Shown here in pieces: positions 49,945-51,871 of a DNA stretch of 64,000 bases. Within the stretch, counting starts at the first letter, position 1, and the number at the start of each line of letters is the position of its first letter. The notes below the pieces were generated by a model, which was not told the DNA's origin, did no database searches, and was given only the letters and a program-made list of their open reading frames with translations. A program made the translations under genes and the position numbers. Origin of the DNA: Gammaproteobacteria bacterium (GTDB lineage: Bacteria > Pseudomonadota > Gammaproteobacteria > SZUA-229); assembly GCA_016744065.1 (NCBI GenBank), contig JADGFA010000017.1, positions 1 to 64,000 on the forward strand. Direction: 5' to 3'.

Positions 49945-49991
49945 TTGATTAAGTATATTTAACTATATTATTTTCAAGTGGAGAGATGTGC

Positions 49992-50957
49992 ATGTCGGAA
50001 GATAATTTATTTCTTAAACAGGCTGGAGTCCAGTACCCAATTATTTGTGGTCCTATGTACCCCTGCAGTAACCCTGAATTGGTTGCAGCCGCTTCAGATG
50101 CGGGTGGTATTGGTATTATTCAGCCGATTTCCCTAACTTATGTACATGGTTATAAGTTTTCTGAAGGGATTAGTTATATGCAGTCATTAACAGATAAACC
50201 ACTCGGTATGAATTTATTAATAGAAAAGGGATCTAAAAAGTACCATCAGCGAATGGAGTACTGGTTGGAGACGGCGCTCGAAATGAATGTTAAGTTTTTT
50301 ATAACCTCTTTGGGTAAGCCAGACTGGGTTGTAGAAAAAGCACATGAAGCAGGTGCTTATGTATATCATGATGTAACAGAAGCTAAATGGGCGGAAAAAG
50401 CAGTTGATACAGGTGTAGATGGTTTAATTGCCGTAAATAACAGGGCAGGAGGCCATGCGGGCTCAAAACGTTCTGATGAGTTATTAGAGCAGTTAAAAAC
50501 ATTTAATCTCCCCATTGTTTGTGCCGGTGGTATTGGTGATGCTGAGTTATATCATCAGGCTCTAAATAAGGGTTACCATGCAGTGCAAATGGGTACACGA
50601 TTTATTGCATCCAAAGAGTGTAATGCTAATATTACTTACAAGCAGGCAATAATAAACTCAAAAGAAAAAGACATTGTTTTGAGTGAGCGTATAACGGGTG
50701 TTCCAGTATCTGTTATTAATACGCCTTATATACAGAGTAAAGGCTTAAAGCCAAATGTGTTAGAACGCTGGATGTTAAGTCATGCAAAATTTAAATATAT
50801 TATGCGTACTATCCTTGCTCTGAAGTCACTGCGTTCATTGAAAAAATCTCTATTACATAAGTCGGGTGATATTGATTATTGGCAGGCAGGTAAAAGCGTT
50901 GAAACAATAGACTCTATATTGTCAGTTAGAAAAATTATTCAGAAGTTTGTATCTTAG
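49992..50957 (+). CDS. Nitronate monooxygenase-family flavoenzyme
   Basis: A 321-residue FMN-dependent TIM-barrel enzyme of the nitronate monooxygenase/2-nitropropane dioxygenase family. The N-terminal GVQYPIICGPMYPCSNPELVAAASDAGGIGII is the family start, DGLIAVNNRAGGHAG carries the conserved His-Ala-Gly, and PIVCAGGIGD plus HAVQMGTRFIASKEC form the phosphate-binding loop. Catalytic His in NRAGGHAG is present. Members detoxify nitronates, or act as enoyl reductases (FabK-like); the sequence does not separate these. I prefer ATG 49992 (after GGAGAG) to ATG 49986. Its 3' end overlaps the end of the convergent glutamine amidohydrolase gene by 23 bp. Confidence 0.88.
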   Translation: MSEDNLFLKQAGVQYPIICGPMYPCSNPELVAAASDAGGIGIIQPISLTYVHGYKFSEGISYMQSLTDKPLGMNLLIEKGSKKYHQRMEYWLETALEMNVKFFITSLGKPDWVVEKAHEAGAYVYHDVTEAKWAEKAVDTGVDGLIAVNNRAGGHAGSKRSDELLEQLKTFNLPIVCAGGIGDAELYHQALNKGYHAVQMGTRFIASKECNANITYKQAIINSKEKDIVLSERITGVPVSVINTPYIQSKGLKPNVLERWMLSHAKFKYIMRTILALKSLRSLKKSLLHKSGDIDYWQAGKSVETIDSILSVRKIIQKFVS

Positions 50958-51519
50958 AGGTGTATATTTTATTTAGGTAATCACCGGGTAGCTGAATTTT
51001 GCTGCCAGGTATACAGGCCTGTAAATCTCTACAGGTTTCAAGTGTTAACTTTTTATTGTTTTTTTTGGGTTTGATAATATCGTAACAGGGAAATTCTGTA
51101 TTATCAATTACACCTGTCATATGCTGGCGATTAGAATAAAAATATTTAAGATAATATCTGGGGTTTATCGTTTTTATCAACGGTTGGTATATGTCTGATA
51201 AATGAATATAATCTGGAAATGTTGTATTGAAATAGTCTGTTAGTGTTGCCGGAAAGTTACACTGACTATCAAAATCAAATATAACTATTTTTTTATCCTT
51301 GTTTGCTGTCAGAATAACATGATAATCCCATATCAGGGGGCTATGAAGGTCTGAGTTGTTTTGTCCAAAAAGTGCAATTGTACGGGTTTGATTCAATATG
51401 AATAATACATCTATGGGTTTTGCGTATTGATTCATATATAATGAATTTATTAGCTTCCATATGTTCTCTTCACAGAACAGGGGGGTATAAATATAATCGT
51501 TTTTATCAAGTTGTTGCAT
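50935..51519 (-). CDS. N-terminal glutamine amidohydrolase homologue (WDYHV/NTAQ1 family)
   Basis: Predicted to convert an N-terminal glutamine of proteins to glutamate, as eukaryotic NTAQ1 does in the Arg/N-degron pathway. From ATG 51519 the protein has 194 residues (human about 205). The triad region is intact: catalytic Cys16 in YTPLFCEENIWKL, His67 in LIWDYHVIL (the WDYHV motif that names the family) and an Asp in IFDFDS (Asp82 or Asp84). YLKYFYSNRQHM and EFPCYDII match further NTAQ1 landmarks. A TTG at 51612 would add 31 residues and overlap the divergent DUF3301 gene, so I reject it. No ATE1-, Bpt- or Aat-like transferase is nearby. Family call firm; role in a bacterium unknown. Confidence 0.88.
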   Translation of the reverse strand: MQQLDKNDYIYTPLFCEENIWKLINSLYMNQYAKPIDVLFILNQTRTIALFGQNNSDLHSPLIWDYHVILTANKDKKIVIFDFDSQCNFPATLTDYFNTTFPDYIHLSDIYQPLIKTINPRYYLKYFYSNRQHMTGVIDNTEFPCYDIIKPKKNNKKLTLETCRDLQACIPGSKIQLPGDYLNKIYTSKIQTSE

Positions 51520-51535
51520 ACAGGTTTCGTGTAAT

Positions 51536-51871
51536 ATGAATTTATCTGACTTATTAGTTATTATAAGTTTAGTATTGCTTATCTGGTTCTGGCTTAATTC
51601 AATGAAAATCAATGAAGCAGCTCGAACTATAGGAGCTAAAATTTGTCAGAGAAATAATGTACAGTTTTTAGATGACTCTGTCCATCTGTCTTCAATGCGT
51701 TTTGGTAAAAATAGTTATGGACAAATAAAGCTTTTACGTAAATATAAATTTGAATTTACCAATAGCAAGTATCATCGTTACGGTGGAGAGTTGATATTTT
51801 CTGGTCGAGTTTTGCAGAGTTCGCATATGGATGTGTATCGATTTGATGATGTTAAAGATATAGAGTTTTAG
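51536..51871 (+). CDS. DUF3301 family membrane-anchored protein
   Basis: A 111-residue protein with one N-terminal hydrophobic helix (LLVIISLVLLIWFWLNSMKI) and a soluble domain with the DUF3301 pattern AARTIGAKICQRNNVQFLDDSVHLSSM and the closing YRYGGELIFSGRVLQS-like segment (here HRYGGELIFSGRVLQ). The family is limited mostly to gammaproteobacteria and has no known function. It is divergent from the glutamine amidohydrolase homologue with only 16 bp between start codons, so their promoters must overlap each other's coding regions. Confidence 0.88.
   Translation: MNLSDLLVIISLVLLIWFWLNSMKINEAARTIGAKICQRNNVQFLDDSVHLSSMRFGKNSYGQIKLLRKYKFEFTNSKYHRYGGELIFSGRVLQSSHMDVYRFDDVKDIEF

Follow-up and report, generated by a model that had tools for sequence, protein, structure and literature searches.

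The window, the whole 64,000-nucleotide stretch of gammaproteobacterial DNA analysed here, encodes a homolog of the human N-terminal glutamine amidohydrolase NTAQ1. The assignment to the NTAQ1 family, with an intact catalytic triad, is strongly supported by sequence, structural model, and conservation, and the protein most probably has N-terminal glutamine amidase activity. Taken as a whole, the observations are best explained by a cytoplasmic Gln amidase that would feed the transferase Bpt and then ClpS-ClpAP, a reading that we consider fairly probable.

The NTAQ1 coding sequence occupies positions 50935-51519 on the minus strand and comprises 194 amino acids plus a stop codon, with ATG at 51519 and the stop at 50935. 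The open reading frame can be extended to a TTG at 51612; the start was set at the ATG because the N-termini of the homologs agree with it. The gene is present in a single copy in its own genome. As in human NTAQ1, the product is a single-domain protein of approximately 200 amino acids. Two homologs (L059:5482-6540 and L070:5374-6552) carry N-terminal extensions of approximately 175-220 residues. No Pfam family matched these extensions, which may reflect misassigned start sites or the fusion of extra domains.

An earlier note on this DNA had recognized a bacterial NTAQ1 homolog and had assigned WDYHV, the Cys of FCEEN, and an Asp of IFDFDS to the catalytic triad. The Pfam search confirmed the family. 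The Nt_Gln_amidase profile (PF09764) was matched over positions 1-157 of 184 with 120.1 bits (E = 1.1e-34; cut-off, 27), far beyond chance. No NCBIfam model named the protein. Human NTAQ1 (WDYHV1, C8orf32; PDB 4w79, 3c9q, and 8jjf) was the sole solved family matched significantly by sequence, with 4w79 as the best match (E = 1.7e-14). The AlphaFold model (mean pLDDT, 95.4; pTM, 0.91) displayed the alpha-beta-alpha fold of NTAQ1, and all 17 significant top matches in the PDB were human NTAQ1 chains, with a TM-score of approximately 0.8.

The triad was likewise borne out by alignment to the human residues. According to the structural report on human NTAQ1, the triad consists of Cys28, His81, and Asp97, with a hydrogen bond between Asp97 and Tyr111. 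A strand bearing Trp78-Asp79-Tyr80 holds the backbone and N-terminus of the substrate (PMC4214742). In the sequence alignment, C16, H67, and D82 correspond to Cys28, His81, and Asp97, Y96 to Tyr111, and W64-D65-Y66 to Trp78-Asp79-Tyr80. On the minus strand, the codons of the predicted nucleophile Cys16 (FCEEN), the predicted catalytic base His67 (WDYHV), and the predicted third triad residue Asp82 (the first Asp of IFDFDS) are located at 51472-51474, 51319-51321, and 51274-51276, respectively, and those of Trp64-Asp65-Tyr66 at 51322-51330. Five of these positions (C16, H67, D82, W64, and Y66) are invariant among 65 aligned bacterial proteins from approximately ten phyla, and the other two (D65 and Y96) are nearly so.

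The identity to human NTAQ1 is only 21-24% across the structural alignment, and a structurally related enzyme, protein-glutaminase, deamidates Gln residues of proteins (PMC4214742). Both points would fit an enzyme that has kept the fold and acts as a glutaminase on internal Gln or on a small metabolite that contains Gln. Against this stands the conservation of the strand that holds the substrate in the human enzyme (no variation at W64 and Y66, almost none at D65), and a different substrate is considered improbable. By analogy with the human enzyme, conversion of N-terminal Gln to Glu is very probably the reaction catalyzed.

The earlier note had also suggested a search of the genome for bpt, aat, and clpS. 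All three are present, as is clpA; the genome thus encodes each bacterial component known that could make a degradation signal of the change from Gln to Glu. The putative Bpt (C9:29024-29389; 233 amino acids) contains the ATE_N and ATE_C domains, Aat is encoded on another contig (C89), and clpS and clpA are adjacent on a third (C69). The NCBIfam name of the C9 transferase is 'arginyltransferase'. The name Bpt is used here after the enzyme of Vibrio vulnificus, which leucylates N-terminal Asp and Glu, thereby feeding ClpS (PMC3692480); the amino acid transferred is thus taken by analogy with V. vulnificus. The product of NTAQ1 would be a Bpt substrate in this organism; hence, the simplest pathway would be Gln to Glu to Leu-Glu to ClpS-ClpAP. 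In the proposed mechanism, Cys16 of the cytoplasmic enzyme, activated by His67-Asp82, would attack the side-chain amide of a Gln that is the very first residue of a protein or protein fragment, releasing ammonia and leaving an N-terminal Glu. Bpt would then leucylate the new N-terminal Glu, and ClpS would hand the N-terminal Leu to ClpAP for degradation. Gln would accordingly rank as a tertiary destabilizing residue in a bacterial N-degron hierarchy.

The downstream genes are those of the two-tier N-end rule of V. vulnificus (Aat, Bpt, and ClpS/ClpAP). The scheme of that species comprises primary and secondary residues only (PMC3692480), whereas here NTAQ1, as a Gln amidase, would extend the scheme by a tertiary tier; descriptions of the bacterial N-end rule name only primary and secondary destabilizing residues (PMC3692480; PMC6274719). 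The protein shares the fold, the Cys-His-Asp triad, and the substrate-strand residues with human NTAQ1; its bacterial host differs in lacking a ubiquitin-proteasome system, and the genome contains Bpt and ClpS/ClpA instead of ATE1 and UBR ligases. It is an even question whether some bacteria run a three-tier N-degron hierarchy of NTAQ1, Bpt, and ClpS-ClpAP that parallels the eukaryotic Arg/N-degron pathway. Such a hierarchy would differ from the eukaryotic one in that its transferase specificity is bacterial and that it ends in a bacterial protease. If the Gln amidase does act with Bpt and ClpS/ClpA in one cell, Gln would become a tertiary residue there, and some bacteria may have an extra step in selecting proteins for degradation. 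N-terminal asparagine amidohydrolase (NTAN1, PF14736) performs the analogous reaction on N-terminal Asn and belongs to a different family. It gave no match in 45 NTAQ1-positive genomes, a search from which no conclusion follows, as the control was also silent.

In the open-access literature, eukaryotes or the classification of folds are the subject of the papers on NTAQ1, PF09764, or WDYHV that were found (including PMC10318531 and PMC4214742), and no paper describing a bacterial NTAQ1 was found. Subscription work lies mostly outside this literature, so novelty is unproven.

Among bacteria, the NTAQ1 gene is rare and has a patchy distribution. PF09764 was detected in 13 of the 37 genomes searched from the bacterial family of the window (its own genome counted) and in 0 of 21 others of the class. 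It exceeded the cut-off in 8 of 369 gammaproteobacterial genomes sampled; no further genome was found in a 398-genome sample of the phylum, and 14 of 14 well-known controls lacked it. A motif-led scan of approximately 85,000 species, with one genome per species, confirmed 173 relatives. This number is a lower bound because the scan demands exact motifs. According to their records, the 80 relatives listed of these 173 belong to Gammaproteobacteria, Alphaproteobacteria, SAR324, Bacteroidota (mainly Cyclobacteriaceae), Myxococcota, Lentisphaerota, Planctomycetota, Acidobacteriota, Melainabacteria, Spirochaetota, and Thermodesulfobacteriota. Phages, plasmids, and viral contigs gave no match, and an origin from these sets was rejected. 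Three loci from two genomes of the class (L020, L021, and L022) showed sub-threshold matches to PF09764 that covered no more than a portion of the C-terminal half of its profile; these are possibly remote papain-like relatives.

A maximum-likelihood tree of NTAQ1, with human NTAQ1 as the only eukaryotic sequence and no outgroup, splits at a branch of support 100/99 into clade A (36 rows) and clade B (30 rows). The NTAQ1 of the window falls in clade A, which is mostly gammaproteobacterial. Human NTAQ1 falls in clade B among diverse bacteria, where local support is not strong. The earlier note had asked whether the gene was acquired directly from a eukaryote, which the tree does not support. Since the gene lies in a strongly supported bacterial clade apart from the single human sequence, a recent origin from an animal is unlikely, within the limits of this unrooted tree and its sole eukaryotic member. 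The two deeply separate clades are both represented in the bacterial family of the window (L069 and L094 versus L013), where genus g9 carries clade B, and this suggests more than one acquisition within the family. The existence of bacterial NTAQ1 bears on the source of the eukaryotic amidase.

The earlier note had proposed that NTAQ1 feeds the Bpt/ClpS route. The proposal is compatible with the gene content described above and with the enrichment of Bpt in clade A. Bpt was present in all 8 NTAQ1-positive genomes of the class versus 215 of 361 NTAQ1-negative genomes (Fisher p = 0.017, shared ancestry ignored). It was also found in 30 of 33 clade-A genomes, a few of which are not Gammaproteobacteria, compared with 60% of the class. 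ClpS was present in 43 of 45 NTAQ1 carriers tested. The association between NTAQ1 and Bpt is suggestive only, because shared ancestry is ignored, the base rate is gammaproteobacterial, and many genomes are incomplete. Nor is the coupling universal. Bpt was absent from all 16 Bacteroidota carriers of NTAQ1; outside Bacteroidota, 13 of 19 clade-B genomes contained it and 6 did not. On co-occurrence, coupling of NTAQ1 to Bpt and ClpS is somewhat favored.

NTAQ1 persists without Bpt in the Bacteroidota carriers; hence, bacteria can retain the enzyme for a different purpose. N-terminal Gln cyclizes to pyroglutamate, and pyroglutamate would block aminopeptidases, so prevention of its formation would help peptide recycling. 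The main rival explanation is therefore a housekeeping Gln amidase that converts the N-terminal Gln of peptides and fragments to Glu before pyroglutamate forms. The Bacteroidota fit it, as they keep NTAQ1 without Bpt and, in the four tested, without Aat (0 of 4), and so does the lack of an operon link between NTAQ1 and the N-degron genes. Such a role does not predict the enrichment of Bpt in clade A, however, and most bacteria do without NTAQ1. We regard it as a possible but minority account, and a Gln amidase that feeds Bpt and ClpS-ClpAP is preferred.

No obvious partner gene adjoins NTAQ1 in the window, as had been noted before; Pfam assigned the neighbors to DUF3301, nitronate monooxygenase-like, CopD-like, DUF4442, and QSregVF_b genes. 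The DUF3301 gene (51536-51871, plus strand) is divergent, and the two starts are 16 bases apart (51519-51536); hence, the promoter of either gene must be located within the other. L023 and L024 have approximately the same spacing. The monooxygenase-like gene (49986-50957, plus strand) is convergent, and its 3' end overlaps that of NTAQ1. By locus comparison, both are conserved neighbors rather than pathway partners. The order DUF3301, NTAQ1, monooxygenase-like gene is kept within the genus (L013, L007, L009, L023, and L024) and in one further genus, g6 (L026), where one more reading frame precedes the monooxygenase-like gene. Within the genus, the identity of NTAQ1 is 49-63% versus 76-84% for the monooxygenase-like neighbor. 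The locus in G002, the one genome of the genus without NTAQ1, was rejected as an empty site, because it ends approximately 150 bases past the DUF3301 start and the absence is uninformative.

Several homologs come from invertebrate symbionts (L028, L035, and L047, according to their record titles, and L058 Parendozoicomonas), which would suit an exported effector of eukaryotic type with N-termini in a host cell as its target. The NTAQ1 sequence has no hydrophobic N-terminal signal, however, and its immediate locus contains housekeeping neighbors and no secretion genes. Moreover, the chromosomal context is conserved in the genus, and many carriers have no host named in their records. An effector role is thus very unlikely, and a cytoplasmic enzyme is preferred.

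In other lineages, NTAQ1 lies beside differing housekeeping genes, including heme genes, topA and ycaO, and a polysaccharide deacetylase gene. Because the neighbors vary by lineage, operon and neighbor logic gave no partner. A homolog search of all retrieved loci revealed no linkage to bpt, aat, or clpS beyond chance, which counts against the proposed pathway. In L093, NTAQ1 and an aat are separated by approximately 3 kb, about what would be expected by chance over 80 loci (one of the two Aat queries was a wrong open reading frame). In one genus (L025:4706-7682, L027, and L044), the genes for coproporphyrinogen oxidase and a HopJ-family protein (PF08888) directly precede NTAQ1 on the same strand, and an ALAD gene lies downstream. 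In this genus, NTAQ1 may thus be co-transcribed with the heme genes.
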